Part shown: piece by piece, positions 40,099 to 59,874 of the stretch
Layout of the letters: each line of letters opens with the position of its first letter
Position numbering within the stretch: position 1 is the stretch's first letter
Notes under the pieces: generated by a model
Seen by the model: the letters and a program-made list of their open reading frames with translations, nothing else
What the model was told of the DNA's origin: nothing
Database searches by the model: none
Position numbers and translations under genes: made by a program
DNA from: a virus
IMG/VR virus record: IMGVR_UViG_3300024265_000051
Location: 1-60,771 of that record
Length of the DNA: 60,771 nt
Direction: 5' to 3' (one strand)

Positions 40099-41966
40099 TG
40101 GCTAAAGATAAAAGAAAAAGTACTAAAGATAAAAGAAAAAGTACTAAAGATGGCATAACTGATGAAATGATGGCAAGGTTCGATCATGCTTATGGAGAGG
40201 CTTTAGAGAGATTTACAGTTTTCCAGAGACTACAAAATGCTTATGATAACAACCCTAGTACTGTAAACTGGCCAACTATATCTGAGATTACGTTTCCTAT
40301 AACATTTAATTCAGTCGAAGAACAATTGCCGTTTTCTATGCGTTATCTCTTTCCTGAAAATAGGTTTATACAGTTGCTTCCAAATAAAGTAATGGATGAG
40401 AAAAGCGTCAGAAGTGTAGAGGACAGTCTTCTTTATACTGTCAGGAGCCAGATAGATCTTGAGAACGCAGCTTTCCCTTCTATAAAGGATTCATGGAAGT
40501 TTGGTGTAGGGTACGGACTTATAGACACGGAAAGAATAACACCTCCTAAAGTTATCCAAAGTAGAGTTCAGAAGGATGGAGCCATACTTAAACAGACTCC
40601 AAATATAGTTTTCGGTAGACCTGTAACAGTCCCTGTTTATAAATATTTATCAGTAATTCAAGTCATACCTATGCCTGGAGGAGCAAATGTTGAAGGCGCA
40701 AATAAAGCATCAGGACATTTCGTTATAGACTTTAAGACTGAATCTGAGTTCAGAGACATGATGGATGAAAAAGATCCTTTGACTAATGATAAGGTTTATA
40801 AAGGAGATGTTGATACTATAGTAAAAGAAGCAAGGTCAATGAACTTTGATGCAAGAGCTATAATGTCTGACAATATATGGATACTTGCAGGGAAAAGACT
40901 TTCATCTACAAATACGAATGACAAAAGAATACCTGTATTAATACCTATAGTAAGATGCTATTTTGATCATGAACAGCATTGGATAGCAAATGGTAAGCAT
41001 CGTATATGGTCAGCTAAAGACACTTATCAGACTTACATGAGCGATTTAGTAAAATGGTCTGCTTGCGCCGATGGATCAAGATGGTTTCCGCAGAACGTCA
41101 CAGAGGCTTCAGAACGTACAGCAACAGGACAGAATATATGGTATAATGGATTAGTAGATTTGGCTATGTATATGATGAATCCTACAAGAATTATTAATAC
41201 TACAGCAGTAGATAATCCTGACTCTTTAGGAAGAGGTCCTGGTTCAGATATACGAGTTAATAGAAATATTGGTGAATCTGTTCAATATATGGATCTACCT
41301 CAGTTCCCTCAACCGTTGTTTGGGATTGGTGATATTATTGAGAAGTTCCATGCCCAAACGAATTCACAGGTATCAAGTGTTAGGAATGGTCAGGCAGGGC
41401 TTGTCAGGGGTGGAGCGAATGCTCTTGAAACTATGCTTTCTTCAACCACTGGAAGGCAATTCTTAGCAAGTAAGATACTTAAGCTCGGAGGACTCAAACC
41501 AACAATAGAGAAGATACTTATTAAAAAGCAGTTACTGATTGATGATGACGGAGACAAATTTATAGATGTAGATTTTGATGCAGATACTGGAGACAGGAAG
41601 TTTGTTGAAAAGAGTGTCACAATCCAAGACATGAGAAACGTTTACAAAGTAGATCTTAACCTTCCTGCAGCAAGACTTAACTCTGCTTCAGATTTTGCAG
41701 AAAGAGCTGCATATTTTGACAGAACTGAAAGGAAGCCAGAGTTATTTGATGACAGGGCTAGATATGAAGAATTGACTGGAGATGTAGGACTTGTAAGACG
41801 CACAATGCTTCCTGAAAATGTAGTGAAAGAAAGAGCTGCAAGAAGGGCAGAGGCCGAAGTAAGAAACATTGAGAATGGAGGTTCTCAGTCAGGAACAGGA
41901 GAGGCGCAACAAACACAAGGCCAGCAGGCTCTTGCAGGTTCTGCAGGTATTAGCGGGTCACAATAA
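40098..41966 (+). CDS. Portal protein, 622 aa
   Basis: Follows TerL with a one-base overlap and precedes the head genes, in the usual order. Size and overall pattern (long helical stem, beta-rich wing, Gln/Ala/Gly tail) fit a podovirus-type portal, the ring through which DNA enters and leaves the head. The N-terminus is a 7-residue repeat K-D-K-R-K-S-T twice, coded by a perfect 21-base duplication (40104-40145). Confidence 0.7.
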   Translation: MAKDKRKSTKDKRKSTKDGITDEMMARFDHAYGEALERFTVFQRLQNAYDNNPSTVNWPTISEITFPITFNSVEEQLPFSMRYLFPENRFIQLLPNKVMDEKSVRSVEDSLLYTVRSQIDLENAAFPSIKDSWKFGVGYGLIDTERITPPKVIQSRVQKDGAILKQTPNIVFGRPVTVPVYKYLSVIQVIPMPGGANVEGANKASGHFVIDFKTESEFRDMMDEKDPLTNDKVYKGDVDTIVKEARSMNFDARAIMSDNIWILAGKRLSSTNTNDKRIPVLIPIVRCYFDHEQHWIANGKHRIWSAKDTYQTYMSDLVKWSACADGSRWFPQNVTEASERTATGQNIWYNGLVDLAMYMMNPTRIINTTAVDNPDSLGRGPGSDIRVNRNIGESVQYMDLPQFPQPLFGIGDIIEKFHAQTNSQVSSVRNGQAGLVRGGANALETMLSSTTGRQFLASKILKLGGLKPTIEKILIKKQLLIDDDGDKFIDVDFDADTGDRKFVEKSVTIQDMRNVYKVDLNLPAARLNSASDFAERAAYFDRTERKPELFDDRARYEELTGDVGLVRRTMLPENVVKERAARRAEAEVRNIENGGSQSGTGEAQQTQGQQALAGSAGISGSQ

Positions 41967-43515: not shown

Positions 43516-44742
43516 ATGTACAGGGTAACTTTACCTTATACTACTAGAACTACTGGCGTAGATGTCTTTGACACAGACAATTTATTCAGACAGAGAGAGT
43601 TAGACAATCAATTAGATATGCTTAATGATGATGATGGCACACTTCTTAAAGCTCTTGAGTTATGGAGCAGAAAAGAGCCTGTAAATCAGCCTGTTTATAG
43701 TTGGGTAGAAGATGAAATTCTTCCTATTCATACTAATGTTAACAACTCAGGTGGATATTCGTCATCTGCTACATCTATAGTTGTAGATGAGGCAAAACTA
43801 TTTATTGTCAATTCAGAAGTTCATAATACGCGTACACTAGAAAATATGCGTGTTACAGCAGTCAATTATACAACAAACGCAATAACTGTTACTCGTGGAT
43901 GGAATGGTACGCCTCAAGCAGCACTTCTTGACAACGAAATACTTGTAGCTGGTATTGCGCATCTTCCTGAACTTGGTGATGCTAATGAAGGAACCGGACG
44001 TATTCCTGATGTAGAGAAATCAAACTTCGTATCTTATTTTTCTGAAACATTCAAGATTTCACATCTTCAGGATGTTGCAGCAATGATACAAGTTGGTATT
44101 GGCGCACCCGCTACTATAGAATGGGAAGTTGTAAATAAGATGCTTGAGATCAAGCGTAAAGTTAATAAAGCTCTTATTTTTCAACATAAAGGTACTACTG
44201 TAACTGCCGATGGTACTATTTACGTTTCTCAGGGATTCATTCATTATGTTGAAGAAAATGTACTTAATGTAGGAAACAAGAACGAAAACCTTACATGGCC
44301 TATTCTTAGTGAATTCTTTGACCAGTGCTTTGATGCTACTGCGAGTTCTTCTCAGAAATTCGTCAATGCAGGAAATAGATTGTATGGTGCTCTTAACAGG
44401 ATGTCTCGCATAATGTCTACGCCTCCTGTTAAGTACTTCCAACCAGATCTTAATACTGATATGCTTGAGATCACTACTGAAGAAGGCAACCTTGTTAAAG
44501 TTGCAAGGGACAAACGTGGATTCCCTGCTTCTGAAGGTCTTGCTGGATGGGGTCTTGTGGTTGATATGGGCCATGCGTTCCATAGAGAATATGTAGATAC
44601 ACCAATGACGTGGAGACAGAATATCCAAGAAGGTAGATCTCATTACAGGCAAGATGAATATTGGGGTAGTTTCTCTCTTGAAGCACGTCATCCTGAAACT
44701 CATGGTTTCGTTCGCGGCGCAGGAAAAACTATTGTTGACTAA
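43516..44742 (+). CDS. Major capsid protein, 408 aa
   Basis: Strong AAGGAG site, isolated by a short gap on each side, at the place for the most abundant head protein. Contains a beta-rich insertion (G-W-N-G-T, V-T-R) at 115-140 and a long helix (E-W-E-V-V-N-K-M-L-E-I-K) like the HK97-fold spine. The pattern is closest to my memory of DUF5309-type head proteins. Assembles the icosahedral shell. Confidence 0.75.
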   Translation: MYRVTLPYTTRTTGVDVFDTDNLFRQRELDNQLDMLNDDDGTLLKALELWSRKEPVNQPVYSWVEDEILPIHTNVNNSGGYSSSATSIVVDEAKLFIVNSEVHNTRTLENMRVTAVNYTTNAITVTRGWNGTPQAALLDNEILVAGIAHLPELGDANEGTGRIPDVEKSNFVSYFSETFKISHLQDVAAMIQVGIGAPATIEWEVVNKMLEIKRKVNKALIFQHKGTTVTADGTIYVSQGFIHYVEENVLNVGNKNENLTWPILSEFFDQCFDATASSSQKFVNAGNRLYGALNRMSRIMSTPPVKYFQPDLNTDMLEITTEEGNLVKVARDKRGFPASEGLAGWGLVVDMGHAFHREYVDTPMTWRQNIQEGRSHYRQDEYWGSFSLEARHPETHGFVRGAGKTIVD

Positions 44743-44789: not shown

Positions 44790-45359
44790 ATGACGGATGA
44801 AATAACTATTAAAAAAGCTGATAAAAAAGAAGATCTGACTGACGTGTTTTCTTCCAATTCTAACGATGAAGTAGAACAGATAGAAGATTCTACAGAAGAA
44901 TCTATTGTTTCTACTCATCGTCAGGAAGAAAATAAAGAAGAAAAAGTAGATGATGATCTTATAACGATCCAATTTAGGTATAAGAAATACCAAATGATAT
45001 TGGATATTCTTGATGATCTTAAGTCTGAAGAGCATGGAACTCCGCAAGGTAGAGTACTTCATGCTCGTAACTGGAGACTGGTTCTTAATTTAAAAGTTCC
45101 AGAAGATAAAGAAGTTTATGAAGAACTTCTTAAATCTCAACAGTACAAAGCAGACTTCTGGATTCTTAGAAAGGTTGACAAACACGACAGGATAAAGGAC
45201 AGGGCTCAGACGCTTAAAAAACTTCAGAGCATGTCAAGGGCTCAACTGATGTCATTCTTGACTCAAAAAGAAATGATTGATGCTGGCTTACTTCCTGGCG
45301 AACCAGATCCTTCTGAACTTATTATGCTTATAATTGACAATAAAAGATTAGAAATGTAA
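44790..45359 (+). CDS. Hypothetical acidic-start protein, 189 aa
   Basis: An acidic, low-complexity first third (D-E-V-E-Q-I-E-D-S-T-E-E-S), then a helical domain. Just after the capsid gene, so a head accessory, decoration or connector role is possible. A short GCTTACTGTAAGC palindrome precedes it (44760-44772). Confidence 0.5.
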   Translation: MTDEITIKKADKKEDLTDVFSSNSNDEVEQIEDSTEESIVSTHRQEENKEEKVDDDLITIQFRYKKYQMILDILDDLKSEEHGTPQGRVLHARNWRLVLNLKVPEDKEVYEELLKSQQYKADFWILRKVDKHDRIKDRAQTLKKLQSMSRAQLMSFLTQKEMIDAGLLPGEPDPSELIMLIIDNKRLEM

Positions 45360-45368
45360 GGAAAAATT

Positions 45369-46169
45369 ATGAATAAATATATCGTAATATTAATGACTTG
45401 TGTTTGCGTAATTGCAAATTTTTCTATGGCAGAGACTATAGAAGATATTCTGAACAACCAGATAAGAGAAGAGGTTAGGAAAAGTACTGCTAATTGGCAC
45501 AGACTCTATGATGGAGCAACTCTGCCTAATGGTCTTACTGTAACAGGAGCCTTTACTAATTCTGGTGATCTTACTACTTCTGCTGGTGATATAACTGCCA
45601 GTGCAGGAGATATATCAGCAACTCAGACAGCAAGCGGCATAGTATCTGTTGCAACGTTTACAGCAGGAGAGAATGCAGATGCAAAACTTATTCTTGACGC
45701 TGACGATGGCGATGATAATGCAGATACGTGGACAGTTGAATCTGAAGCTACTGGTAATGATCTATCAGTACTTAATCATACTACAGAGGTACTGAATCTA
45801 ACTTCTGCAGGTGCGTTATCTGTCATTTCTACTTTTGATGCTGATAGCGTAACTGTAGATGCAAGCGCAGGTCTTGACACTCAAGCTGCAGGTTCATTGC
45901 TTATAGGTGCTGCTACTGCTACATCTGTAGAGATTGCTGACACTGCTGTAGCTACAGATATACAAGGAACTTTATCTGTAGACGAAGCCGCTGTTTTTGA
46001 CACTACTCTAGAGATTACAGGCCTTCCTATAGTTACAGTGACTAACGCTCCAGGAAGTAGCACCATGGCAATAAATGATTTGCCTGCAGCAACAACTAAT
46101 GCTCTGTACTTCAAGATAAGGTTGACTGGAGCAACTAATGAATATGTTATTCCTGCGTTCAAAATGTAA
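45369..46169 (+). CDS. Signal-peptide fibre-like protein, 266 aa
   Basis: M-N-K-Y-I-V-I-L-M-T-C-V-C-V-I-A-N-F-S-M-A is read as a Sec signal peptide, with S-M-A as the cleavage site near residue 21. The mature part has repeated Gly/Asp/Ala/Ser strands (T-A-S-A-G-D-I, then S-A-G-D-I-S) as in phage head fibres and tail fibres. First of six signal-peptide genes in the late block. Secretion signals on virion proteins are rare, so a host-surface role is also possible. Confidence 0.65.
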   Translation: MNKYIVILMTCVCVIANFSMAETIEDILNNQIREEVRKSTANWHRLYDGATLPNGLTVTGAFTNSGDLTTSAGDITASAGDISATQTASGIVSVATFTAGENADAKLILDADDGDDNADTWTVESEATGNDLSVLNHTTEVLNLTSAGALSVISTFDADSVTVDASAGLDTQAAGSLLIGAATATSVEIADTAVATDIQGTLSVDEAAVFDTTLEITGLPIVTVTNAPGSSTMAINDLPAATTNALYFKIRLTGATNEYVIPAFKM

Positions 46170-46187
46170 TAAAAAAAATAAAGGAGA

Positions 46188-47009
46188 ATGAATATGAATA
46201 TGGTTGAAAAACTTCCTGTAAGAACTGCTGAGATACAAAAAGCTGATACAAAAAATCCTTTATTCCGTCTTAAGTTTAAGGATATCAGAAAAGGCAGTGG
46301 AGAAACTCAAGATCTGTATGCTGCAATAACTATAGATAATAATGGGTCTGACGATAGCAAACTTATAATATTGCTGAATATAGGTGTGAGCGCAACTAGT
46401 TATACTCAGTATCAGTTTTCTGCTGCTGCTGCTGCTGTAGCAGATCCTAGTGCTGTTGATTCGTCTCCTACTCATGCACAAGTAACTACACTTGGGGCAC
46501 TGATAGATGCTGTCAATGCATTGAGATTAAACACAACTCCGGTAGGTTTGTGGATGGTCAGGCTTGATGCTGCTGCTGATTACTCTATTGATACAGATGA
46601 TTTCATTGATCTTACTGAAGAGACAATGAGCCCTCTGTTTACTGATTATCTGTACAGAGATGCTTCAGAACTTACTTATATGTCTATGCGTCTCGGAAAC
46701 CCTGACGACCTTAATGGTAAGAGAGCAGGCGGAGAGATTGATATAGTGTCTATACAGGCTCTTGTAGATTCTAACTCAGGAACGGATTGTGAATTCAAGA
46801 TGAGTTACGATCCTGAAGAGACTGATTATACCCAAGAAGAAGAACTGGGTTATACAAGATTAGTTCCTGATAACTCATGGACTACTCTATGGGATTGGTC
46901 AACAAGACCTCTGAGAGTTAAAGGACCGATTCTTATTGAACTTACATCTACTGTATCAATGGCAGATGGCGCTAAATGTCTCATAAATTACCGTAACGCT
47001 GAAGTCTAA
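46188..47009 (+). CDS. Hypothetical structural protein, 273 aa
   Basis: Beta-rich protein with a low-complexity Ala run (about residues 78-90) and no signal sequence. Three in-frame ATGs follow AAAGGAG; the second (46194) has best spacing. Sits between two signal-peptide genes; probably a structural component. A perfect 14-bp hairpin follows. Confidence 0.5.
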   Translation: MNMNMVEKLPVRTAEIQKADTKNPLFRLKFKDIRKGSGETQDLYAAITIDNNGSDDSKLIILLNIGVSATSYTQYQFSAAAAAVADPSAVDSSPTHAQVTTLGALIDAVNALRLNTTPVGLWMVRLDAAADYSIDTDDFIDLTEETMSPLFTDYLYRDASELTYMSMRLGNPDDLNGKRAGGEIDIVSIQALVDSNSGTDCEFKMSYDPEETDYTQEEELGYTRLVPDNSWTTLWDWSTRPLRVKGPILIELTSTVSMADGAKCLINYRNAEV

Positions 47010-47017
47010 AAAATTGA

Positions 47018-47058
47018 TGTGGAGGTCTGCATTAGGTATGGCCGTGCAGGCTTCCACA
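47018..47058 (+). terminator. Strong hairpin, possible terminator or processing site
   Basis: TGTGGAGGTCTGCA (47018-47031) pairs over 14 bp, two of them G-U, with TGCAGGCTTCCACA (47045-47058), loop 13 bases, followed by a T-rich GTTTCTAATTT. It could reduce read-through into the fibre genes, or act as an RNA processing or leader element for 47080-47595. Confidence 0.55.
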
Positions 47059-47079
47059 GTTTCTAATTTGGAGTGTATC

Positions 47080-47595
47080 ATGAAAAAAATATCTATATTC
47101 TTCGTCTGTATATTAATGATATGCATTAATATGATGGGAGAATCTCAACCTGAAAGGCGTGAGTACGCTCAAGATCTTATAGCCGGTGAACTTTATTTTA
47201 TTGAATGGAAAAACGTTATTGGTGGATCGTATTCATTTACTAATAATTTGACGTACATGTGGTACCCTGCAGAAATTGAAACATGGTATACTGCTGCATC
47301 TACTAGCACAAATTCAATGAGTCATGTTTTCAGACATACAGAAGAACAGTTTGAGGAAACTCGTGTAGTTACAAATGAATTCGGAAATATTCAAACGAAT
47401 TATCTTCATGGGCTTACAAACACTGTGACTACACTCATAACTAACAGTATTGTATCATGGACTAATACTAGCGAAACAAGAAAGCAAGCAGATGTATCAG
47501 CTCTGAGCAATCACTATATACAGCGTGGAGATATTATTCCTTTCGTTTTCAGCAATACTAATTCAGTATGGCTAAGACTAGTCGGAAGGAGATAA
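47080..47595 (+). CDS. Secreted hypothetical protein, 171 aa
   Basis: Start at ATG 47080 (M-K-K-I-S-I-F-F-V-C) with GGAG upstream; the longer frame runs through the hairpin. Hydrophobic core to about residue 20 suggests a signal peptide; the cleavage site is weak. Mature part is Thr/Asn-rich beta strands. Second signal-peptide gene of the cluster. Confidence 0.6.
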   Translation: MKKISIFFVCILMICINMMGESQPERREYAQDLIAGELYFIEWKNVIGGSYSFTNNLTYMWYPAEIETWYTAASTSTNSMSHVFRHTEEQFEETRVVTNEFGNIQTNYLHGLTNTVTTLITNSIVSWTNTSETRKQADVSALSNHYIQRGDIIPFVFSNTNSVWLRLVGRR

Positions 47596-47596
47596 T

Positions 47597-50500
47597 ATGA
47601 AGAAACAGTTTATTTTTGCTTTATGCTTTATTGCATGTTCTTTTTGCTATTCAGCTCCACCTACAAAACCTATAAATGCTAATTTTCAACTCACTGGACA
47701 ACAATGGGATTTAAGGACTAAGGTTGGAAATACTCCAAATATAGTTGCCACAATGTATGATGGTGATGATTTATGGGATGCTACAGGATGGACTTTTACT
47801 TTCAAGTTTGGAAGGAATAGAAATTCTGACAACATGGTAAGCATAGCAGGAGTAGTCACATCAAATACTGTAAGTTTCCAGGCAATGACAAACACATTCG
47901 GCTCTCCTATTGAAAAATGGTATTGCGCTATAACAGCATCTCATACTAATAATTACGTAAATTCAGACCCTGAAGGAATAATAACTATTAAAAGGGCTCC
48001 TGAAGTTGATTCAGGAACTCTAAGTTTTGTTAGAAGTATAAATCCAAGTTTATATACATTTTCTGGATCTACAGCAACATGGCCTTTTCTTTCAGATCAA
48101 GATGGTTCTGCAGTAGGAGACTTAACCTATTTTAATGGAACAAACTGGATAAGCATATCAGCAGGAACTTCAGGTTATATTCTCTTATCTCAAGGTTTAG
48201 CTGCGCCTATATGGACAAATATTACTTCAGTAGTAAATATTAATGGTGGCGATGGTATTGATGTTACTGTGTCTGGAGGTACAAATACAATTGCAGTCGA
48301 TGCTACAGTCATACGTCGTGACGGCATCATTGATTTCACAGGCGATCAGGATCACGGTAGCAATGCTGTTACGGGCGTAGAATATCAAGATTTTGAGCCC
48401 TTGTCGGCAGATCCAGCACACCAGGCAGGCCGTGTATTTTATAATGCTACAGACGATTCCTGGAAAATGTATTTTGAAAGCTCTGAAGTCACAATGAACG
48501 TAGGAGAAGAGTTATGGTTTCCCGGCAGAAATAATACTGGATCTACAATAACAAATGGTCAGGTAGTGTATGTTACCGGACAAATAGGTCAAAAGGAAAC
48601 AGTTGCCCTTGCACGAGCAAATAATGAAACAACAGCGAAGGCGTTAGCTTTTGCGACAGAGGAAATACTCAATAATGAAAATGGAAAATGTACGATTTTT
48701 GGGTCTGTAGGCGGATTGAATACAACGGCTATAGGAAGTAACAGCGGATCAGATTTATTCTTGTCTGCAACGACGTTTGGCTTAGCGCAGACAAACGCTC
48801 CGACAGGAGAGACTAATTATATCGTGAGGCTTGGTAAACTCGGTATCATAAATCCTGTCACCGGTAATGTTAACATCAATATTCATCCGGCTATAATGGC
48901 AAACGAGATTTTTGGATTAAATAGTGAGATAGCAGCATCACAGGCATTTACAAACTTAGAGGCTCAGGTAACGGCGAACCTTGATACCAATACGATACAA
49001 CAGAATCTTATACTTACCAATCAATTTTGGATTTCGGCTAACTCAGATAGCAATGCCGTCAATACGTCCGGAGTTGCAAATAATATTGCTACAAACCTAG
49101 ATCAATGGGTTATAATATATTCAAATCAAGCTAACATTGCAATTTTAGATACCAACACATGGAAAATCTCAGAGAGCAACACGGCGGCGGCTGGAACTAC
49201 TAATACGCATGCAACCTCCAAGTTCCGGAGCGGCACAGAAACAGCTAATGGCTACTCTGATCTTGCGCTTGAGACTTTTAACGTTGGCACTAACTCGGTG
49301 ATTAATGTTGTGGACGGCGTAAACCCACAGGATGCAGCTACTATCTCGCAAATATCTACGGTGCGACAACTACTTAATGCTATGCCGACCAACAGGCCAG
49401 TACTTACATATTCTTCAGATGGGACAAACGTAACTATAGCAGTTACAACAACTGATGGATCAGGGTCTTTTGATGTATTTTTCGACGATACACTTGTGCA
49501 GTTTGCTACCCCGATAAATCTTACGCTTACACCCGGTACCACAAACAGTTTGCAAATGAATTATGTATATGCTCTCGCTGGCGGGGTCACGAATGGTACT
49601 ACATTCCCTACAGGAGAATATTCTCCGATGTTTGATATAGGTCTGCTTGACGCCCTGTTTACGCAGAATACTGGCCTATATTCGATACGCCGTCATACGG
49701 ATGAAGTATCGGGGCCAAACGGTGATGATAGATCGGCTGTACAAAGGTTAATGCATAGGGTTAGACTTGAGCCGTCTCGGTGGCTAGAAGGTGGAGATTT
49801 GGCGGCTGTTGTTACTACTCAGGGCGGCGCGAATGATGATGTATATTTAACCATTACGGCGGGAATTTCGGCACAATTGCATGAGCAAACATTCCCTGCT
49901 GTGACCGCTACTAATGGTAGCGTTTTTTACATAATAGATAATCATCCCGATGGTAAGCAGATGATCACTAATCTTAATCAGATCACCGTAGATGCTAATA
50001 GCAATGCTGTTCTTAGCAGTTCAGTAAGTTATTTTAATGTGGTGGTTATGAAGCATGTCAGCAGTGGTACAACTGGCAGTGTTGGGGAGGTCCATCTTAA
50101 TTTATCTACTGATGATTATGCCAGCCAAGCCAACGCACAGCAAGATGTTAATCAGCATGCCGTGTATTCGGTCTCTGACCCACGGTTACCCGGTCAATTC
50201 ATTGTTGTAGGTTTTGCTACCCTCCACCGGACCCCTGCTGGAGGCGGTACATTTGATGTCACGATTACACCTAAACTTGGTACTTCTGTTGGTTCGGCGG
50301 GGGGCGGGGCATCGAGTCCAGAGGCTAAAGTAAATTTTACAGATGCCGAGCTTACTATCTTTGATGCTGTCGCGCCCACAAACATCATACGTTTCAACGC
50401 GGACGCTACAGGCGGAGACATGACGTACACTATGCCCGAAGCTAATGGCGGTGCTGGTACGGTTGCGCTGACAACTCAGGACGAAACGTTTGATGCTGAT

Positions 50501-51664
50501 GTCGGAATAACAAGTAATTTGACAGTAACGCTAGATGTCAACATAAACGATGATTTATCCGTGGCCGATAATCTTAATGTCGGCACATCAGCGACTGCAA
50601 CGGGCGGCGATTCATTTGCGTCTGGAACATTGTCTGATGCTTCTGGTTCTGACTCTTGTGCAATTGGAAACAGTGCAGAGGCGAATGCTTTTAGGTCAAT
50701 CGCAATAGGAAACGATGCGACAGCTAGTTCGAGTGCTGCTATAGCTATTGGTGATACAACGGTTGCAAGTGGCGCAAGTTCTTTATCCCTTGGGGCTGGT
50801 AATAATGCATCTGGTTCAAGTGCTATTGTTTTGGGCAATAATTCAGGTGCAACCGCTACTGATTCCATGGCTTTGGGAGAAGGCGCAATATCTTCAAATG
50901 AGAATAGCGTTGTGTGGTCTGACGGCACTGCGCAAACTAGCTCTCTTGACGATCAGTGGACTTCGAGATTTGCGAGTGGATACAGAATTCTAGGTGCTGG
51001 TCCAATTACTCTTGATGGAAGCGTGCTTTCTAACTACGTAGCAGGCGCAGGATCTATAACCACTAACACACCTACAGACGGACAAATCGCTAAATGGAAT
51101 GCAACGGATCAAAGATGGCAGGCTGCTGCGGCAACGGCTTCATCGGGCGGTCCACTTGATAGCAGGGCTCAAACAAATAATGTGAACGGCAATAATTTTT
51201 CCTATACTAACATAAATGATCTTGCATCTACAAATGTTTCATTAACTCAGCCTCCATTTTTCACTGTGCATATGTCTACACAACAAAATATTACAAATGC
51301 AATAGCGACCAGAATGGAGGCAGATTTAATTATAGATGATAATTACTCTGGCTATGATACGAATTTATTTAGGTATAATCCTCAAGTGCCGGGAAGTTAT
51401 CATTTTGTCGCTAATATCAGGATGGATGCTGTTGCAGATCAAGCTTGGTGTTGGATCGCGCTATACAAAGCGGGTGCCATACAAAATCCATCTATGGCCA
51501 GGGTTACAGCTTCGGGTAGTTCTTTTAATACGCTGAGGGCAGTTTACTGCATGCATCTAGCAACTAATGAGTATATTGAGGTATTCCTTTTTAATAATGA
51601 TTCTACTGTCAGGGTGGCAAATGAAGCATTTGCATTATTCCAAGGCCATTACATAGGGGAGTGA
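47597..51664 (+). CDS. Signal-peptide tail-fibre/adhesin with YadA-like head repeats, 1355 aa
   Basis: M-K-K-Q-F-I-F-A-L-C-F-I-A-C-S-F-C-Y-S-A gives a signal peptide. The middle has phage-fibre modules (I-T-N-G-Q-V-V-Y-V-T-G). Residues about 1015-1105 hold short repeats of the S-x-A-I-G-x-x-A type, the YadA/Hep_Hag head of trimeric adhesins. The C-terminus may be a knob. DNA composition changes inside the gene near 48250, with more G and C after it, so it looks mosaic. Most likely receptor-binding fibre or exported adhesin. GGAAGGAG start. Confidence 0.7.
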   Translation: MKKQFIFALCFIACSFCYSAPPTKPINANFQLTGQQWDLRTKVGNTPNIVATMYDGDDLWDATGWTFTFKFGRNRNSDNMVSIAGVVTSNTVSFQAMTNTFGSPIEKWYCAITASHTNNYVNSDPEGIITIKRAPEVDSGTLSFVRSINPSLYTFSGSTATWPFLSDQDGSAVGDLTYFNGTNWISISAGTSGYILLSQGLAAPIWTNITSVVNINGGDGIDVTVSGGTNTIAVDATVIRRDGIIDFTGDQDHGSNAVTGVEYQDFEPLSADPAHQAGRVFYNATDDSWKMYFESSEVTMNVGEELWFPGRNNTGSTITNGQVVYVTGQIGQKETVALARANNETTAKALAFATEEILNNENGKCTIFGSVGGLNTTAIGSNSGSDLFLSATTFGLAQTNAPTGETNYIVRLGKLGIINPVTGNVNINIHPAIMANEIFGLNSEIAASQAFTNLEAQVTANLDTNTIQQNLILTNQFWISANSDSNAVNTSGVANNIATNLDQWVIIYSNQANIAILDTNTWKISESNTAAAGTTNTHATSKFRSGTETANGYSDLALETFNVGTNSVINVVDGVNPQDAATISQISTVRQLLNAMPTNRPVLTYSSDGTNVTIAVTTTDGSGSFDVFFDDTLVQFATPINLTLTPGTTNSLQMNYVYALAGGVTNGTTFPTGEYSPMFDIGLLDALFTQNTGLYSIRRHTDEVSGPNGDDRSAVQRLMHRVRLEPSRWLEGGDLAAVVTTQGGANDDVYLTITAGISAQLHEQTFPAVTATNGSVFYIIDNHPDGKQMITNLNQITVDANSNAVLSSSVSYFNVVVMKHVSSGTTGSVGEVHLNLSTDDYASQANAQQDVNQHAVYSVSDPRLPGQFIVVGFATLHRTPAGGGTFDVTITPKLGTSVGSAGGGASSPEAKVNFTDAELTIFDAVAPTNIIRFNADATGGDMTYTMPEANGGAGTVALTTQDETFDADVGITSNLTVTLDVNINDDLSVADNLNVGTSATATGGDSFASGTLSDASGSDSCAIGNSAEANAFRSIAIGNDATASSSAAIAIGDTTVASGASSLSLGAGNNASGSSAIVLGNNSGATATDSMALGEGAISSNENSVVWSDGTAQTSSLDDQWTSRFASGYRILGAGPITLDGSVLSNYVAGAGSITTNTPTDGQIAKWNATDQRWQAAAATASSGGPLDSRAQTNNVNGNNFSYTNINDLASTNVSLTQPPFFTVHMSTQQNITNAIATRMEADLIIDDNYSGYDTNLFRYNPQVPGSYHFVANIRMDAVADQAWCWIALYKAGAIQNPSMARVTASGSSFNTLRAVYCMHLATNEYIEVFLFNNDSTVRVANEAFALFQGHYIGE

Positions 51665-51665
51665 T

Positions 51666-51983
51666 ATGCATAGATACATAATTTCTTTTATAGTTTTATT
51701 TTTGGCCTTCGCAGCATATGCCGCAACTCCAGACGGCAAAGTACTGTGCGCAAACGAGGCCACAGCCAACAGCATACTAGCTGAACTCAATGCACTTCAC
51801 GGCCTCTCTCCGTCTACACCGCGTAAGATCATGGCGGGCAAACCAAAGACTACGTTTAGCACCGTGAAGGCCGTGCTTGATGATGACAATATCCCGACAG
51901 GGCAATACATGTTTATTGTTAGAGGATATTGCTATCATCTGCTTAACCAGCGGGCGAAAGATTCATGGGTGGCTAATGAGTAA
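51666..51983 (+). CDS. Secreted small protein, 105 aa
   Basis: Signal peptide M-H-R-Y-I-I-S-F-I-V-L-F-L-A-F-A-A-Y-A with a classic A-Y-A cleavage site, then a small alpha/beta domain with two Cys (V-L-C-A and Y-C-Y-H). AGGGGAG upstream. The next gene starts inside it. Could be a fibre accessory or a periplasmic chaperone for the adhesin; not shown. Confidence 0.6.
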   Translation: MHRYIISFIVLFLAFAAYAATPDGKVLCANEATANSILAELNALHGLSPSTPRKIMAGKPKTTFSTVKAVLDDDNIPTGQYMFIVRGYCYHLLNQRAKDSWVANE

Positions 51984-53238
51984 AAAGCTTATAGTACTTT
52001 TTTCTCTGCTTGTACATGTGGGTTATGTTCATAGCTATGAATACTCTATCGTGACAACGAATCGTATATGGTCAGATACGAATAATTGGACATCTGGAGT
52101 GGGTTTTCCTGATGATCCTACAGCGATTGCCACAAATAATACTGGGGCAGATTTATTTTTGTCTGAAGATATAACTATTTCCACATACATAAAAACCGCC
52201 GGCGGAAATAATGATATGGACCAAGAGGGTTTCAAATTTACTTATACGGGTTTGGGTATGAATGGTTTAACTGTATCCAACAGTTATGGGTCTATTATTT
52301 CGCACAAAGGCGGTATGATTGTTTTTGGCACAAATACACTTTCTTATATTAAGCCTAACTCCGAATTACGCGCATTCGCATCAATAACCAATATTACATT
52401 TTCTGGCGATTTATGTTTTTTCAGTGATAGAACAAACACAACGCTAACCGGGGGCGCAGATTTTCGTTTTGATGATACCGATAATTTTCATGGGACTGGA
52501 GATATAATCGCTTCTAATGCAATCATAAGATTTCAGGACGAACAAGACGATAACTGGTCAGGCAATCTACGTCTAGATGATGCCGCTATCAACGTTGAGG
52601 CCAACAGCGGGGTTTGGAAAAACACCATAATTCTCGGCATAGGCGGCGGCACGATAGGACAGAACTCGCAGAATGACCAGAATACATTTGCCTCTACAAT
52701 TAGCGGTGTGGGAGATTTACGTATACACCGTCGCAACGGATCTAATACAGGTAAAGAAACGTCTCTTACGACATCCAATAGTTACGGCGGTGCCACGCTT
52801 CTCATCGGTGGAGAAGGTTCCGGCGGTTTGGGATGGGGGCTAATTGCCGCAAAGGCTCCTGGTTGCCTGAGGAATGACGTGACGATTGATCCGTATGCCC
52901 GGCTACAATTATTTACCAATAATGTTTTTGATGTCAGTGCAACTGTCAATTTAGAGTCAAGCACAAATCTGCAAAATACCGCTGTGATCAGATTCATGAA
53001 TGCAAACTCGGGGCAAACAATAGCATCGCTGGAAATAGACGGCTGGCCGCAACGGTCCGGTACCTATGGTGCTATTGATTCTGGCGCAAAATTCCAAAGC
53101 GATATTTTCTTTGTCGGTACTGATGCAGTCTTGACGGTAACGGGCGTTATACCTAGAAAAATATTTATAACAGGCAGCAAGGTTTGGCGGACTGGCGGCA
53201 AAGAGTTTTTGACGCATCCCAATACCATTAAGGAATGA
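51976..53238 (+). CDS. Autotransporter-strand-like secreted protein, 420 aa
   Basis: Start at ATG 51976 (M-S-K-K-L-I-V-L-F), 8-base overlap with the gene before. Signal peptide ends V-H-S near residue 19. The mature part is a Gly/Asn/Thr-rich beta-helix with W-S-D-T-N-N-W near the start, N-S-Y-G-G-A-T repeats and a G-T-Y-G-A-I-D-S-G-A-K-F end. This closely follows autotransporter-associated beta-strand proteins, common in PVC bacteria. Likely a virion spike or an exported host-like surface protein, possibly host-derived. Confidence 0.65.
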   Translation: MSKKLIVLFSLLVHVGYVHSYEYSIVTTNRIWSDTNNWTSGVGFPDDPTAIATNNTGADLFLSEDITISTYIKTAGGNNDMDQEGFKFTYTGLGMNGLTVSNSYGSIISHKGGMIVFGTNTLSYIKPNSELRAFASITNITFSGDLCFFSDRTNTTLTGGADFRFDDTDNFHGTGDIIASNAIIRFQDEQDDNWSGNLRLDDAAINVEANSGVWKNTIILGIGGGTIGQNSQNDQNTFASTISGVGDLRIHRRNGSNTGKETSLTTSNSYGGATLLIGGEGSGGLGWGLIAAKAPGCLRNDVTIDPYARLQLFTNNVFDVSATVNLESSTNLQNTAVIRFMNANSGQTIASLEIDGWPQRSGTYGAIDSGAKFQSDIFFVGTDAVLTVTGVIPRKIFITGSKVWRTGGKEFLTHPNTIKE

Positions 53239-53239
53239 T

Positions 53240-53593
53240 ATGAAAAAAGAGGGGGATAATAAAATGGGAGTATTATCAGCAGAACAAATGCATGACAAGG
53301 TTTGTGAGCCTAAATTTGAAGCCTATGAAAAAGACCAGGAAGAAATAAAAATAATATTAAAGAAAACTCATAAAGCATTATGCGAATCAAATGGAAAGCC
53401 ATCTGTTTTAGCTAGGCTAAATAAATTAGAGGAACAGATAGATATTGGTGGCAAGAAGATGTGGGGAATAGTTTTCAAGCCTATAGAATCTCGGGATATA
53501 CCTAGAATAATCGTAGCATTAGGCATGACTATTATTCTGCTTGATTTTGCAGGAGTGCCTATAAAGGAATGGATATCTTTACTGAGAAAATAA
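53240..53593 (+). CDS. Putative holin-like or membrane-tethered protein, 117 aa
   Basis: A coiled-coil-like N-terminus (K-F-E-A-Y-E-K-D-Q-E-E-I-K) and a single C-terminal hydrophobic helix (I-I-V-A-L-G-M-T-I-I-L-L-D-F). This order is seen in some one-pass holin or spanin-like proteins, and the next gene is a DUF1353 family protein, which often travels with lysis genes. ATG 53264 with GAGGGGG before it is an alternative start (109 aa). Confidence 0.5.
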   Translation: MKKEGDNKMGVLSAEQMHDKVCEPKFEAYEKDQEEIKIILKKTHKALCESNGKPSVLARLNKLEEQIDIGGKKMWGIVFKPIESRDIPRIIVALGMTIILLDFAGVPIKEWISLLRK

Positions 53594-53594
53594 T

Positions 53595-54023
53595 ATGAAA
53601 TATATTCATTACAGAGGCGGGTACAAGTATCAGTTAGTAAGTGATTACAGCGTTATCATATCTATAAAACATGAAACAGACATTTATTCTCCTGATGGAT
53701 TTATAAAATTATCTAAAGATGGTATACTTGATATTAAAAGAGGATATGCGTGGGACGGTCCTTCAGGCCCTGCAATTGATACCAAAACATTCATGAGGGG
53801 ATCTTTAGTGCATGATGCTCTTTATCAGTTAATGAGAGAAGATTTAATTGATAAAAATATATACAGAAAAGAAGCTGACAAAATACTATTTAAGATATGC
53901 AGGGAAGACGGAATGATACTTATTAGAGCTTCATGGGTGTATACTGCTGTTGCATTAGGTGCGAAATGTGCTGCAGATCCTTGCAGTAAAAGGAGTATAA
54001 TAACAGCTCCAGAAACAAAATAA
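53595..54023 (+). CDS. DUF1353-family phage protein, 142 aa
   Basis: G-Y-A-W-D-G-P-S-G-P, then S-L-V-H-D-A-L-Y-Q-L and R-K-E-A-D-K-I-L matches the DUF1353 family. Its His-Asp pattern (L-V-H-D-A-L-Y) resembles an enzyme active site, but its role is not established. Often near holin or endolysin genes. No separate endolysin is seen here. Confidence 0.75.
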   Translation: MKYIHYRGGYKYQLVSDYSVIISIKHETDIYSPDGFIKLSKDGILDIKRGYAWDGPSGPAIDTKTFMRGSLVHDALYQLMREDLIDKNIYRKEADKILFKICREDGMILIRASWVYTAVALGAKCAADPCSKRSIITAPETK

Positions 54024-54049
54024 TATGCTTGGATGATTAAATCAAAAGA

Positions 54050-54070
54050 CCTATAATATTAAATATTAGG
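54050..54070. terminator. Weak AT hairpin
   Basis: CCTATAATATT followed by AAATATTAGG forms a weak stem, with AAAA before and TTTT after, in the 66-base gap between the DUF1353 gene and the adaptor gene. Could act as a modest terminator on either strand. Confidence 0.3.
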
Positions 54071-54095
54071 ATTTTACAAAAAGAAAGGCATGTTT

Positions 54096-55007
54096 ATGCA
54101 GTTATATAAAGCTTTTATTGATGAAATACTTACTGATGTTACAGGTGTTAATGATGATGATCTCAGGGAAAGAGTCGAGCTTCTTACAGGAACAATGTAC
54201 GAAAGAATAGTCAAAGAGATAAGTATATCAAATTTTAGGACAAATCTTGATTTAGATTTTACAGATATAGGAGAAAATGGAATCATATTGCCGTCTAATC
54301 TGTTTGGAATAGATGCAATAAAGGACGAAACTAATAATATAGAATTTATCTTAAGGAATAGTAGCGCAATAGAAGTTGATGAATACGCTTACAAAGCTTA
54401 TACATATCATCCATCTCAAGATCCTTTGTATTATTTTCAAGATCTATTGATAAATTCAGGTGGTACTACTTTTGAGTCTGACGATTTAGCAGCTATAGTA
54501 GCCGGTGGAGTTAGCGTTGTTGATGAATGGATACGCATTGGGGGAGAAAACGGTTATTATCAGATAACAGAAGAAGCAGCAAATGTATTTACAATATCTC
54601 CTAAGTATTACGGACGAGATAGGAGTGATGAAATTTTTGTTGTACGCCCTCCAGAAACGAACTATCTTGTTATTTTAGATCCTAATGATATAAAATTGCA
54701 GGACAGAGAGATAACACTTTATTACTGGACTGCTCCAAGACCACTTACAAAAGATACAGATACTATACTATTGGCAGACACAAAGCTTCTGAAACTTAAA
54801 GTATTAAGAGAAATGCCTGAAGCAAAGAAAAGAAGACCTGTATCAGATAGTGAGATAAGAGAAGCACGGTCAGCACTTATAAAACTAAATCCTTCTGATC
54901 CTAGAACGCAAAGCCCTAGAGATAAGCACAATAGATTGTTTGACTTCAGGACAAACATGTACACAGGAAGAGGTAGAAATGTCCAGAGAACTACTCCCAA
55001 CTTCTAG
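54096..55007 (+). CDS. Head-tail adaptor-like protein, 303 aa
   Basis: Start at ATG 54096, where AAAGG has better spacing than at 54090. The N-terminal helical part (F-I-D-E-I-L-T-D-V-T-G) and C-terminal L-Y-Y-W-T-A-P-R-P-L ... L-L-K-L-K-V-L-R-E-M resemble adaptor proteins that join portal and tail in short-tailed phages. The middle region is beta-rich. Overlaps the next gene by 29 bases. Confidence 0.55.
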   Translation: MQLYKAFIDEILTDVTGVNDDDLRERVELLTGTMYERIVKEISISNFRTNLDLDFTDIGENGIILPSNLFGIDAIKDETNNIEFILRNSSAIEVDEYAYKAYTYHPSQDPLYYFQDLLINSGGTTFESDDLAAIVAGGVSVVDEWIRIGGENGYYQITEEAANVFTISPKYYGRDRSDEIFVVRPPETNYLVILDPNDIKLQDREITLYYWTAPRPLTKDTDTILLADTKLLKLKVLREMPEAKKRRPVSDSEIREARSALIKLNPSDPRTQSPRDKHNRLFDFRTNMYTGRGRNVQRTTPNF

Positions 55008-57165
55008 CATTGAAGCTAACAAAATAAGAGAAAAGCTTAAGGATTCTGCTTCTGAATTTTTCATAAATGAAGATAATGTAACTGTTTCTGTAGATGGTGA
55101 TTCTCAGTTCACAAGATTATGGCAGTTAGGCGTAAAGGATGAATTTTCTCAGATAAGATATTTCCTTGATAGGTATACTGATGTAAAAAATAGCAATGCT
55201 TCAAAATTCGTAGTAGATCCGAAAGTAGGCAACACAGTTTTAAAAGGAAGATATAGACAAGCATTTGTAAGGAGAATTGAAAGGCTTGATCGGGGCACTA
55301 CTACTTACTGGGTAGCTCAGACATTAAGGCAAGGATGGGCTCTAGAGCTAGATTGGGAAGAGGCAAGGCTTTCTAAAGGTAATGACCTTCCAGGCAATGC
55401 TACTGGAACAGGAAACGAAACAAGCGATAGTCCAGAGAAGTATATATATGCAGAATTTAGCGGAGTATCTAATTCTGCGGTTCAAAGCTTTATGGCTAGC
55501 CTTTCTACAATTTACAATACTGTGATAATAGAGACTATGGAATATGGTAATAACTGGCACCTTGTACAGGCATTTCATGAAAAGCAAGATGATGGTAGTT
55601 CTACAATTACTGTCAAGTTGGCAAGACCACAATACACATTAGAGGCGTTTAGTAATGTTGGAGGATCGAGAGAAACAGACGATCTTTACTTATGGAACGT
55701 ACCAAAAGACTTAGCTCAGACAATTATAAATGCAAATGAAGCAGCTGGCAAAACTGCAAGACCTATGTACAGAGGAGAACTTGTAGATATTATTATAACT
55801 ACTGCTGTTTTTGATGATCTTGTAGCAAGATATGATTCATTAGAAACTCATCTAACAGAAGAAGACACTATAATATATGAGAATAAATCAACTCCTATTG
55901 ATGCTCTTGATTCCAGGGGGCAAGGATCAATCTACAGGGCTACTAATTCATTCAATTCTGTTGGTGGTTACGATGCTAGACTTGTATATACAAAAAGCAA
56001 AGCTGATATAATTGAATTTGCCTCCATGTCTTCAGCATTCAAAGCAATACAATCAACAATATACAAAAACTCAAACACGTCAATATCGGCCCCGGCTAAT
56101 TCAGGTTCAGGAATATATAGAGCTGCACAAAGCATAAATGAGGATGGAACTTACGATGGTAGGCAACAGTATACATACGGAACAGGTGCAGGCGTATACG
56201 AATATAAGTCATTAGATTCAGCATTAATGGAAGAGACCGAAACTATATATAAAGATAGCAATAATGCTATATCTGCAGATGATGATGTTCAGGGAGGGAT
56301 TTATAGAGCAAGTAATTCCATGACTGAAGATGGGCTTTATAATTCTAGAAAAATATACAGAGCAAGTGTTGAAAATGATGTAACCATAAATAGCCTTAAC
56401 TCTGCATTCAAGACTCAAAAATCAAGGATATATAAAAACAGCAGGACTCCTATATCTGCACCTTCTCCTTCTGGAGGCGCATCAATTTATCAGGCAACTA
56501 ATTCATTCAACCTTGATGGAACTTATGATGGACGTATAGCTTGGACTGAAAGTAACAATTCAGGAGTATACGAGTTTTCATCTACAAATACTTATCTGAA
56601 TGGTAATTTATCAACGATATATAAAAACGTTAGTAATCCAATAGCTGCAGAAGATAATTTACTAGGCGGTGTTTATCAAGCTTCAAATTCTATGCTTGAA
56701 GACGGAACATATAATGCAAACAGTGTTTATGCAGGAAGTAAAGCTGCTGCTCATTATTCTTACTGGCCTACAAGATACGGAGATGGGGAAGCTTATATAT
56801 ATAAGAATTGGAGATCTGCTATAAATTTCTCTTCGTTCCTTAATTCTGACAAGAGTAATAATGTATCACCATCTATTAATATTGACGGAACAAATAATTA
56901 TACTATCACAAGAACTCCTTATGTAGGAAGCGGTTCTACAGATTTTTGGGATGACTTCAGATACAAGTTTAGATATTATAGCACTGGAATAGCTAGCAGT
57001 ATTGGTGTGTATATATATCATACAAGAGATCTTGAAACTGCTGAAACCTGGCTTGCTCTCGCACATGCAGACGGAACGCTTGGAGGCAATAATTTAATAG
57101 CAGCTAATATGGATCATGCAGGGAAAGGAAGATTTGCTGCTCATTATAGATCTAAAATAACATGA
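54979..57165 (+). CDS. Tail protein with about 62-aa tandem repeats, 728 aa
   Basis: Start at ATG 54979 with GGAAGAGG. The first 300 residues look like a tail-tube or hub-like domain. From about residue 295 to 600 there are five to six units of about 62 residues, each with I-Y-K-N-S then I-x-A, G-I-Y-R-A-x-N-S and D-G-T-Y-D-x-R. The repeat probably forms a beta-rich fibre or spike. ATGA overlap with the next gene. Confidence 0.6.
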   Translation: MSRELLPTSSIEANKIREKLKDSASEFFINEDNVTVSVDGDSQFTRLWQLGVKDEFSQIRYFLDRYTDVKNSNASKFVVDPKVGNTVLKGRYRQAFVRRIERLDRGTTTYWVAQTLRQGWALELDWEEARLSKGNDLPGNATGTGNETSDSPEKYIYAEFSGVSNSAVQSFMASLSTIYNTVIIETMEYGNNWHLVQAFHEKQDDGSSTITVKLARPQYTLEAFSNVGGSRETDDLYLWNVPKDLAQTIINANEAAGKTARPMYRGELVDIIITTAVFDDLVARYDSLETHLTEEDTIIYENKSTPIDALDSRGQGSIYRATNSFNSVGGYDARLVYTKSKADIIEFASMSSAFKAIQSTIYKNSNTSISAPANSGSGIYRAAQSINEDGTYDGRQQYTYGTGAGVYEYKSLDSALMEETETIYKDSNNAISADDDVQGGIYRASNSMTEDGLYNSRKIYRASVENDVTINSLNSAFKTQKSRIYKNSRTPISAPSPSGGASIYQATNSFNLDGTYDGRIAWTESNNSGVYEFSSTNTYLNGNLSTIYKNVSNPIAAEDNLLGGVYQASNSMLEDGTYNANSVYAGSKAAAHYSYWPTRYGDGEAYIYKNWRSAINFSSFLNSDKSNNVSPSINIDGTNNYTITRTPYVGSGSTDFWDDFRYKFRYYSTGIASSIGVYIYHTRDLETAETWLALAHADGTLGGNNLIAANMDHAGKGRFAAHYRSKIT

Positions 57166-57887
57166 GTGATAACTTAACATTAGTAGATGAAAGAAACATG
57201 TCTGAAGCTAAAGGAGAATTATCATCCCTAACTTCTAAACTTGGAGAAAATAAAGAAGAAAACCAAATCCTTATTGAAACTTCAAGAAAAAGTAAATCTG
57301 AATTATTCAGAGAAAAATACTTTCCTGAAAATATTTTTGAAGCAACTACAGAGGAAGATAATGAAATAGAAGTAGAAATTGATATTGGCAATGCAGTAGA
57401 TATTCCTATCACACCAATAGAAGACATTACAACTCCTGCTATTGAGGTGGCTACTGCATTGCCGTTACCTGGCGAAATCACATCATCTAGACTAAATGAT
57501 ATAGAATCAAGGCTTGATAATGTAGAAGACGATGATATCCCATTTACTGTACCTGTTGAAGAAGTAATACCATCTTCAGGAGTTACAACGCTTAAACACT
57601 CTTTAAGCGGCACTACATGCACAATATCAGCAGGACGTATAAGATTAGGTGATACAACAATAATTTTTTCAGAAGACTCTGTGACTCTTACGGGTAGTGT
57701 AGAGGAGGTTTACATAAGTGTAGATATAAACAATGATTCAGCAACATTGTTACATGCATCAAGCGTATCAGACAATAATGCTGACACATTCTATATTCCT
57801 CTTGTCCAGTTTTTAGCAGTAGGAGCTGATTATATAATGACAGATATTAGACATGAGGGTGACTATAATGCGTTTGCTACTATATAG
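57162..57887 (+). CDS. Hypothetical coiled-coil and beta-domain protein, 241 aa
   Basis: Coiled-coil-like N-terminus (S-L-T-S-K-L-G-E-N-K-E-E-N), acidic middle, then a beta domain with T-T-C-T-I-S-A-G-R-I-R-L-G-D. Between the repeat tail protein and a signal-peptide protein; likely structural. No signal peptide. Confidence 0.5.
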   Translation: MSDNLTLVDERNMSEAKGELSSLTSKLGENKEENQILIETSRKSKSELFREKYFPENIFEATTEEDNEIEVEIDIGNAVDIPITPIEDITTPAIEVATALPLPGEITSSRLNDIESRLDNVEDDDIPFTVPVEEVIPSSGVTTLKHSLSGTTCTISAGRIRLGDTTIIFSEDSVTLTGSVEEVYISVDINNDSATLLHASSVSDNNADTFYIPLVQFLAVGADYIMTDIRHEGDYNAFATI

Positions 57888-59874
57888 TTTATGCTTTTTT
57901 CTAATATCTAATGCAGTGTTGTCTGACTTTCAAAATCTCCCAATATCTACAAACGGTGTCGATTGGAATATTGTAAATAAAACCAATAATTATATACGCG
58001 GTCAAATAGCTAGCAGTATTGTGGAAAAAACTTTTGCAGTTGGTTTGCCTCCAATCGAGATAGTCGAAACATGGAGCGTATTTGATACATGGGGTACAAA
58101 TATTATTCCATGGACGAACGGTTTAGATACAGGAATATACACAAATATATTCGAAACCAATATTCTTGTAACAACAACCAATGCAGGTAGAGCATTTGAA
58201 TATACAAAAACTGATTCATCTTTGGCTACTGGTCATACGTATATTACTCATTTTTATATGAGCGAATTAGATGGAGCCATTGACGATCTTTTCACTGCAA
58301 ACAAATTTGTTGCCGTAAATATTGCTACCAATGACATAACTAACTGGTTTTCTCAAAGTATGACTGCAACAAGTGTGCATACTGTTGCAGGAGCATTTAT
58401 CGTTAACACTACAAATATTTTTCAGCGTTACGCAACTAATGTATTTCTAGCTAGTAAGGCCAATATGTTCACAGTTCTAGATGTAGGGATTGTTCGTGAT
58501 CCTATTACTAACGAATGGGGATACATTGCGGGTGGTGATGCTTTTTTTACTAGGCGACCGTCAACAACTAATTCCTATATTTTATCAGAATTACATAGAC
58601 CATACGGATCTAACGTTTTCGTGGAGGCTAGAGGATTTGGTTCTAGTGGCGTAAACGGTCTTTACTCTGAAATAACAAATGGAATTTACTATACGCATAT
58701 GAATAACCCATCCATAAAAATACTACAAAACCCTGCATCAACAAATGAATATGCTATTACTCCGTTAGGCTTTTATAGTCCTATATTGTCATATTATACA
58801 AGTGCATCAGGAATATTTACTGCATCATGGACTGCGCAGTTTTTCGGTGTAAATCCGCCTGGAACAACAATAGCAAGAGGTTCTGAAGATGGTATATTTA
58901 TAGATATACAAGAATTTGATAAACGATATTATGATGAAAATAATTTTCCTGTATTACAGTATAGACTTCATGGAACAAATATTTTCTCATCATTAACTGT
59001 ATCAATAACAGGTTCTGTTTTAGTAGTAAGTAATCAAACTACAATAGCTGCAGGAGAAACTATAGTTATTGGAAGTACAAATCCTATATCACTTTCAGAG
59101 TTATGGTATGATATTAGCAATATTACTGTTGCCGCTAGTTGGGATAATCCAAGTGACGTTATAAATATTCAGTATAAAGGAAACTTTGCTCTTTACGGTG
59201 ATAGACCATATAGGCTTTACGCTTTAGATATCAATGAACGGTGGAAAATTCTGTCACACATGATAATGACAAAGGAAAACGAAACATTCGGGAATAGACA
59301 AACAAACGGATGGATTAGAACAGCAATTGCTTCATCAACAAACTTTCTTGCAGCAGAATCAACACAGAATGTATTATGGGCTGCAAGCACTTACTCTGCT
59401 ATTGACCCTGCATTTTACAGGATAGATGCTAAGCAGATCTACGATCATAATGCTATTAATAAATATGGGTATGATTCAGAACGAAGGTTGCCTGATAATC
59501 CACACACAATTACAGGTATAGATACAAACACCAGTCATACAACAGAATTATACATGAAAATGAATGTTCCGTTTGACGGACGAAGGTTTGAACCTGAATC
59601 AGGTCCATTTACTAATACTCATTATTATGATGTTTTTGATTTTGATTCTGTAGTAACTAATGACAGTATAGCTAGCAATAAGATGTCGCAAGTATTTGAA
59701 TCTACAAATATCCTTCAAAACTATGAGTTTAATATTATTTCAATTAGTTCAAATTCTGCTAATCCTGTTCAGTCAATATCATGGCCTGGAGATCCAGACG
59801 GAATAAGTAGAGACTATATATTTGAAGATGGAGGATCAGTCTGGATTTTAAGATGGGACTTTGATTGGAAATAA
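57868..59874 (+). CDS. Secreted large beta-rich protein, 668 aa
   Basis: Start at ATG 57868 (M-R-L-L-L-Y-S-L-C-F-F-L-I-S-N-A-V-L-S), with V-L-S as a cleavage site; a GAGGG lies before it. Long Asn/Thr/Tyr-rich beta pattern with F-G-S-S-G-V-N-G-L-Y-S, similar in style to fibre or capsule-binding proteins. Sixth signal-peptide gene of the late block and the last before the glycosyltransferase. Confidence 0.6.
   Translation: MRLLLYSLCFFLISNAVLSDFQNLPISTNGVDWNIVNKTNNYIRGQIASSIVEKTFAVGLPPIEIVETWSVFDTWGTNIIPWTNGLDTGIYTNIFETNILVTTTNAGRAFEYTKTDSSLATGHTYITHFYMSELDGAIDDLFTANKFVAVNIATNDITNWFSQSMTATSVHTVAGAFIVNTTNIFQRYATNVFLASKANMFTVLDVGIVRDPITNEWGYIAGGDAFFTRRPSTTNSYILSELHRPYGSNVFVEARGFGSSGVNGLYSEITNGIYYTHMNNPSIKILQNPASTNEYAITPLGFYSPILSYYTSASGIFTASWTAQFFGVNPPGTTIARGSEDGIFIDIQEFDKRYYDENNFPVLQYRLHGTNIFSSLTVSITGSVLVVSNQTTIAAGETIVIGSTNPISLSELWYDISNITVAASWDNPSDVINIQYKGNFALYGDRPYRLYALDINERWKILSHMIMTKENETFGNRQTNGWIRTAIASSTNFLAAESTQNVLWAASTYSAIDPAFYRIDAKQIYDHNAINKYGYDSERRLPDNPHTITGIDTNTSHTTELYMKMNVPFDGRRFEPESGPFTNTHYYDVFDFDSVVTNDSIASNKMSQVFESTNILQNYEFNIISISSNSANPVQSISWPGDPDGISRDYIFEDGGSVWILRWDFDWK

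Follow-up and report, generated by a model that had tools for sequence, protein, structure and literature searches.

Sec signal peptides on late proteins of a phage suggest export of part of its attachment apparatus before lysis

Tailed phages are taken to assemble wholly in the cytoplasm. The locus studied here raises the question of why a phage would place Sec signal peptides on proteins encoded in its late region, including a fibre. An earlier note on this DNA had described six such signals, and proposed either that fibres are exported and added outside the inner membrane or that the phage covers the infected cell with adhesins. Our analysis of the sequences suggests that part of the attachment apparatus is exported before the cell bursts.

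The window, i.e., the whole stretch of DNA analysed, has 60,771 bases. Its first 127 bases are identical to its last 127 (an exact direct repeat, 1-127 and 60645-60771), so the genome is complete at ~60.6 kb. Late genes occupy the plus strand from ~34.4 kb through the end of the record and on to 9.0 kb; a glycosyltransferase-like gene at 59891 crosses the junction of the genome ends and reaches into 1-275. Early genes are on the minus strand, and the early half encodes DnaB- and SNF2-type helicases. Three consecutive early genes (11628-12705, minus strand) encode envelope proteins, which by their sequences are a signal-peptide protein (12187-12705), a probable lipoprotein with an LSSG-C lipobox (11972-12190) and a membrane-anchored protein with Cys motifs (11628-11954). 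This trio is a possible lysis or exclusion cassette. Another minus-strand gene (20838-21587) encodes a pentapeptide-repeat protein (PF00805) with near-identical ANLSSANLRS units. Two scans of genome collections found neither a provirus nor a host for the phage.

All features of the window discussed from here on are on the plus strand. The terminase large subunit (38146..40098; phrog_24361, E=0.0022), a portal-type protein assigned by position (40098..41966) and the major capsid protein, or MCP (43516..44742; phrog_1328, E=9.7e-10), lack signals; the MCP also matches DUF5309-type capsids. Signal-bearing genes follow, interspersed with late proteins that have no signal (44790..45359 and 46188..47009). 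Further downstream is a small protein with one C-terminal hydrophobic span (53240..53593), which has no family match and could be holin-like, judging by its position. It adjoins a DUF1353 gene at 53595, and both are ahead of a gene for an SU10-type adaptor-like protein without a signal (54096..55007, with a longer ORF from 54090; PF24175, E=1.1e-4, below the curated cut-off). Among the SU10-type virion parts that we sought (adaptor, nozzle and needle), this adaptor domain alone matched, at that sub-threshold score. The next late protein (54979-57165) contains several repeats of an IYKNSNTPIS...GGIYRASNS unit and has no match in Pfam, PHROGs or a PDB sequence search; it is possibly a nozzle or stalk protein. 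The late protein at 57162, which has no signal, is fibre-like by eye and could be a true tail fibre. No endolysin was recognised with Pfam among the named late genes and 40 other proteins.

The ORFs reported to carry signals, at 45369, 47080, 47597, 51666, 51976 and 57868, are all present at these starts with the N-termini described. Each has K or R at its start, no D or E in residues 1-18, a hydrophobic core and A, G or S as the -1 residue at position 19-21, and none has a second membrane span. At the level of sequence, this confirms six Sec-type signals with a signal peptidase I pattern. We scored N-termini with a home-made sum of a cleavage-site matrix (from 36 E. coli signals), core hydrophobicity and N-terminal charge. 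In calibration, 16 of 18 exported E. coli proteins and 0 of 67 others scored at least 6, the top non-exported protein having 5.82. Its training set consisted of alanine-rich E. coli signals, and it may be too strict for an A+T-rich phage. The results were 15.4 (51666), 12.1 (45369), 6.9 (47597), 6.5 (51976), 5.75 (47080) and 4.98 (57868); thus, four of the six are within the range of exported E. coli proteins and two are borderline. All six rank in the top 10 of the 90 window genes. Cleavage sites had been called mostly good, which holds for the small -1 residue in every case but not for the poorly scoring sites of 47080 and 57868.

Such scores are rare elsewhere. In the neighbourhoods of 60 other phage MCPs, 7 of 878 ORFs (minimum length, 100 amino acids) reach 6 without a second hydrophobic span. 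The proteins that attain this score in T7, SU10 and N4 are all lysis or small membrane-type proteins, with no virion protein among them. By a simple rule written after the sequences had been seen, 6 of 13 genes are signal-positive in the module at 44790-59874, a region chosen post hoc, versus 4 of 77 elsewhere (Fisher p = 4e-4). Two of the six scores are in the grey zone, as could be expected if start codons were wrong or hydrophobic N-termini had arisen by chance, but we consider this explanation extremely improbable. Shine-Dalgarno-like sites are present at the signal starts (TAAGGA for 45369, GGAG for 47080 and 51666, AAGGAG for 47597, and a weaker GGTG for 51976 and 57868). Between residues 13 and 50, none of the six genes offers an in-frame start codon with such a site, which makes a form without the signal unlikely. 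Moreover, shuffled N-termini give 0.54 genes per genome with a score of at least 6, and counterparts in a related phage, described below, have the same pattern.

The most informative signal-bearing protein is the fibre of 1355 amino acids encoded at 47597..51664, whose signal is MKKQFIFALCFIACSFCYS^APPTK (^ marks the predicted cleavage site). In order, it consists of the signal, a BppU-like domain, a tail-fibre domain, YadA-type head repeats and a weakly C1q-like tip. The tail-fibre domain (residues 229-466) matches, at ~30% identity, tail fibres of Pseudomonas phage Rollin (E=3e-12), Roseobacter phage CRP-6 and others, and also occurs in phage phiAC-1, near the N terminus of a protein encoded beside the capsid gene. 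By domain homology, then, 47597 is a real tailed-phage fibre, and it is the only one of the six for which we found fibre-domain homology. The N termini of the homologs from Rollin, CRP-6 and the others showed no signal when read by eye, so the signal on 47597 appears special to this lineage.

A BppU-like fold directly behind the signal (47654..48130) is assigned with low confidence. Its model is a beta-sandwich with a mean pLDDT of 48, and its PDB neighbours are the TP901-1 baseplate, the ORF48 N-domain and the 80alpha baseplate, with E-values of 0.003-0.02 that are not significant alone. The values for 3uh8 and 4v96 are 0.003-0.004, and none is below 0.001. In the viral model library BFVD, “minor tail protein” and “BppU domain” models match with E-values of 1e-5 to 1e-4. 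The earlier note's report of YadA-like head repeats in a fibre proved correct: the repeats (50615..50920, residues ~1007-1108) match BpaC (7o23, E=7e-11) and YadA (1p9h, E=2.6e-5), while Pfam PF05658 (E=1.6e-4) is just below its cut-off. No YadA membrane anchor family was found in this protein in a Pfam scan at E<=0.1. The protein ends in 140 residues that are similar to C1q (51260..51649; Pfam C1q, E=0.02 across the full domain), and the PDB matches, although weak, are mostly of C1q type.

The five other genes are less uniform than the idea of six fibres would suggest. The gene at 45369..46169 (signal MNKYIVILMTCVCVIANFSMA^ETIED) encodes what looks like a short fibre or stalk protein, and that at 47080..47595 (MKKISIFFVCILMICINMMG^ESQPE) a small late protein. 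Those at 51666..51983 (105 amino acids, with the strong signal MHRYIISFIVLFLAFAAYA^ATPDG) and 51976..53238 (a beta-rich protein of 420 amino acids, MSKKLIVLFSLLVHVGYVHS^YEYSI) have raised third-position GC, at 0.47 and 0.38 versus 0.19-0.32 for the rest of the module. Therefore, they are probably later acquisitions, and they may be cargo separate from the virion. The protein of 668 amino acids encoded at 57868..59874 (MRLLLYSLCFFLISNAVLS^DFQNL) is the weakest case, with a low score and no ortholog found; its AlphaFold model has a mean pLDDT of 29. Together with 45369, 47080 and 47597, and more weakly than these, 57868 looks like a native signal gene. Searches of known phages and plasmids found no relatives of 51976, 57868, 46188 or 47080. 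The earlier note had mentioned an autotransporter-strand protein among these genes. Our searches do not support such strands in 51976, as PF12951 was matched neither anywhere in the genome at E<=1 nor in the Pfam scan. None of the six proteins has a membrane, wall or autotransporter anchor or other sorting domain in Pfam, and no lipobox or LPXTG motif was seen in their sequences.

We found a single relative, the contig IMGVR_UViG_3300031227_000322 (hereafter L016), by means of a profile in which the MCP was combined with distant phage capsids. When viral contigs were scanned with single proteins (MCP, portal, terminase and fibre), no relative was returned, and pair profiles of the MCP, 46188 and the portal returned this contig alone. 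It ends inside the fibre gene and has a GC content of ~50%, versus ~38% in the window. Identities to the window are 73% for the MCP (10001-11227), 52% for the portal (6545-8383) and 46% for the terminase (4615-6558). After the MCP, the gene order is that of the window, with types 44790, 45369 (twice), 46188, 47080 and 47597. The two tandem 45369 counterparts have signals ending AFA^GN and VFA^EN, the 47080 counterpart (14997-15497, 47% identical) one ending CHG^EG and the fibre counterpart at 15500 one ending SFG^AT; Shine-Dalgarno sites up to AAGGAGGT are located at these starts. The BppU-like domain of the fibre is 31% identical in the two phages. By contrast, the counterparts of 44790 (11282-11821, assigned by position) and of 46188 (14112-14933, 52% identical), the latter serving as an internal negative control, lack signals, just as in the window. 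Therefore, the signal follows the gene and not the genome. Among the native signal genes, the comparison with L016 covers 45369, 47080 and 47597.

The letters of these signals have changed considerably. Identity between window and relative is 7/22 for 47080, 5/22 for the fibre, and 6/22 and 8/22 for 45369. When DNA was allowed to drift neutrally to equal divergence, it attained the partner's score in 5.6% of runs for 47080, 0.5% for the fibre, and 0.2% and 0.7% for 45369, in a test that uses our home-made score and simple ungapped drift. That drift so rarely reaches this score argues for selection on the export property of these three signals. The tandem 45369-type genes of the relative (11818-14064) have similar signals, diverged C-terminal halves and, in one copy, YadA-type repeats (a weak YadA-head match). 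This duplication looks like diversification of an appendage tip. Downstream of six further MCP relatives (23-31% identity) we saw no signal genes like those of the window; hence, the capsid family as a whole does not share the trait.

These comparisons also bear on the idea that the hydrophobic N termini are uncleaved tethers, used in virion docking or inserted into the host membrane at entry, and that the proteins stay in the cytoplasm until lysis. N-terminal segments of fibres usually dock, as in SU10 gp12 (PMC9509320), and the cleavage sites of 47080 and 57868 are poor. However, all ten proteins (six in the window and four in L016) have K or R within residues 1-6, no D or E in residues 1-18 and A, G or S at -1 in position 19-21, and the -3 residue is A, S, C or V in nine of them (M in 47080). 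A tether would need none of these properties. In addition, core letters vary freely between the relatives, while the signal pattern stays. A tether function is thus improbable.

Sec export of the signal-bearing proteins is well supported by the predicted signals and their retention in a diverged relative. We give a nearly even chance to the explanation that the appendages are synthesised as Sec preproteins, pass into the periplasm of a diderm host and are attached to virions at the time of lysis or later. The phage is tailed, probably with a short tail, and short signals, here of 19-21 residues, suit the diderm host that we infer. According to this explanation, translation of the appendage module would yield Sec preproteins. 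The fibre, together with two or more companions, would cross the inner membrane, and signal peptidase would cut at residue 19-21. Folding of the appendages would take place in the periplasm, separately from the assembly of heads and tail cores in the cytoplasm. Because we found neither an outer-membrane anchor nor a lipobox or sorting domain, the exported proteins should stay in the periplasm, where they would remain soluble or loosely bound. Lysis would then mix the compartments, and the fibre could dock on virions via its BppU-like N-terminal domain. Fibres and tailspikes of T4 and P22 can join finished particles in lysates. Points against docking from the periplasm are the weak BppU-like model, the single relative, the possibility that 57162 is the true tail fibre and the absence of signals from SU10 fibres. 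The broader proposal, that virions of this lineage are finished outside the cytoplasm (within the periplasm or upon lysis), with receptor-binding appendages as Sec preproteins and with fibre folding and head assembly in different compartments, is a serious candidate that we nevertheless rate somewhat below even.

Alternatively, the exported proteins might not be virion parts and might function at the infected cell's envelope, with late synthesis as the reason for their place in the late operon. They could block or mask receptors, against superinfection or the loss of progeny to debris, or could make cells stick to each other. Taken together, these variants are a real possibility, but one we would not bet on. 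Phage lambda encodes Lom, a signal-bearing outer-membrane protein that may have such an envelope role, in its tail region (PMC12309495), YadA-type and C1q-like heads are general binding modules, and the apparent acquisition of 51666 and 51976 is as expected of cargo genes. Moreover, the 57162 protein could serve as a virion fibre without a signal. On the other hand, a membrane or wall anchor was found in none of the six proteins, 47597 combines a phage-type fibre domain with a BppU-like one, and few large receptor-binding candidates are left in this complete genome once the signal genes are set aside. As for the earlier note, its premise of export is well supported by the signals and their retention in L016. 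Of its two proposals, the coat of adhesins is the weaker half, since no anchor, sorting domain, lipobox or LPXTG motif was found and the largest protein has phage fibre domains.

Prior export of fibres would relocate part of virion assembly to the periplasm or delay it until lysis, and host range would then also depend on the host Sec pathway and on periplasmic folding factors. Exported fibres could also mask receptors on the producing cell. If action at the envelope is the correct explanation, the phage bears a multi-protein surface programme within its structural operon. The conserved signals provide a sequence feature for which other phages can be screened.

Sec signals are common in phage lysis, exclusion and conversion proteins. 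In rumen phages, two of five have one or two predicted signals each. Filamentous phages have virion proteins with Sec signals (pIII and pVIII), but these phages are extruded, are not tailed and do not assemble a capsid in the cytoplasm. Kuravirus SU10 (PMC9509320; NC_027395) has a weakly similar adaptor (PF24175) and late-module fibre genes near the capsid gene. However, 0 of 50 scored SU10 proteins reach 7, and no virion protein resembles a signal-bearing one. Its adaptor gene directly precedes the fibre genes, whereas the adaptor-like gene of the window comes after them; the notion that the signal genes occupy the exact SU10 fibre slots was dropped for this reason. Trimeric autotransporter adhesins (YadA and BpaC) resemble 47597 in having YadA-type head repeats behind a signal peptide, but 47597 has a C1q-like C terminus and no YadA membrane anchor that we could find.

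Among open-licence papers, we found no report of a tailed phage with signals on a set of fibres that are kept across relatives, and reports concerned only single genes or counts. The nearest precedents are Lom and PblB. Lom is likewise a signal-peptide protein encoded among tail genes (PMC12309495), but it is a single beta-barrel that inserts in the outer membrane, whereas the window encodes several proteins, one of them a multi-domain fibre, with no anchor found. PblB, from a Streptococcus pneumoniae prophage, is a tail-type phage protein that acts as an adhesin and has a predicted signal (PMC4508584), although it is a single protein of a temperate phage with a Gram-positive host.
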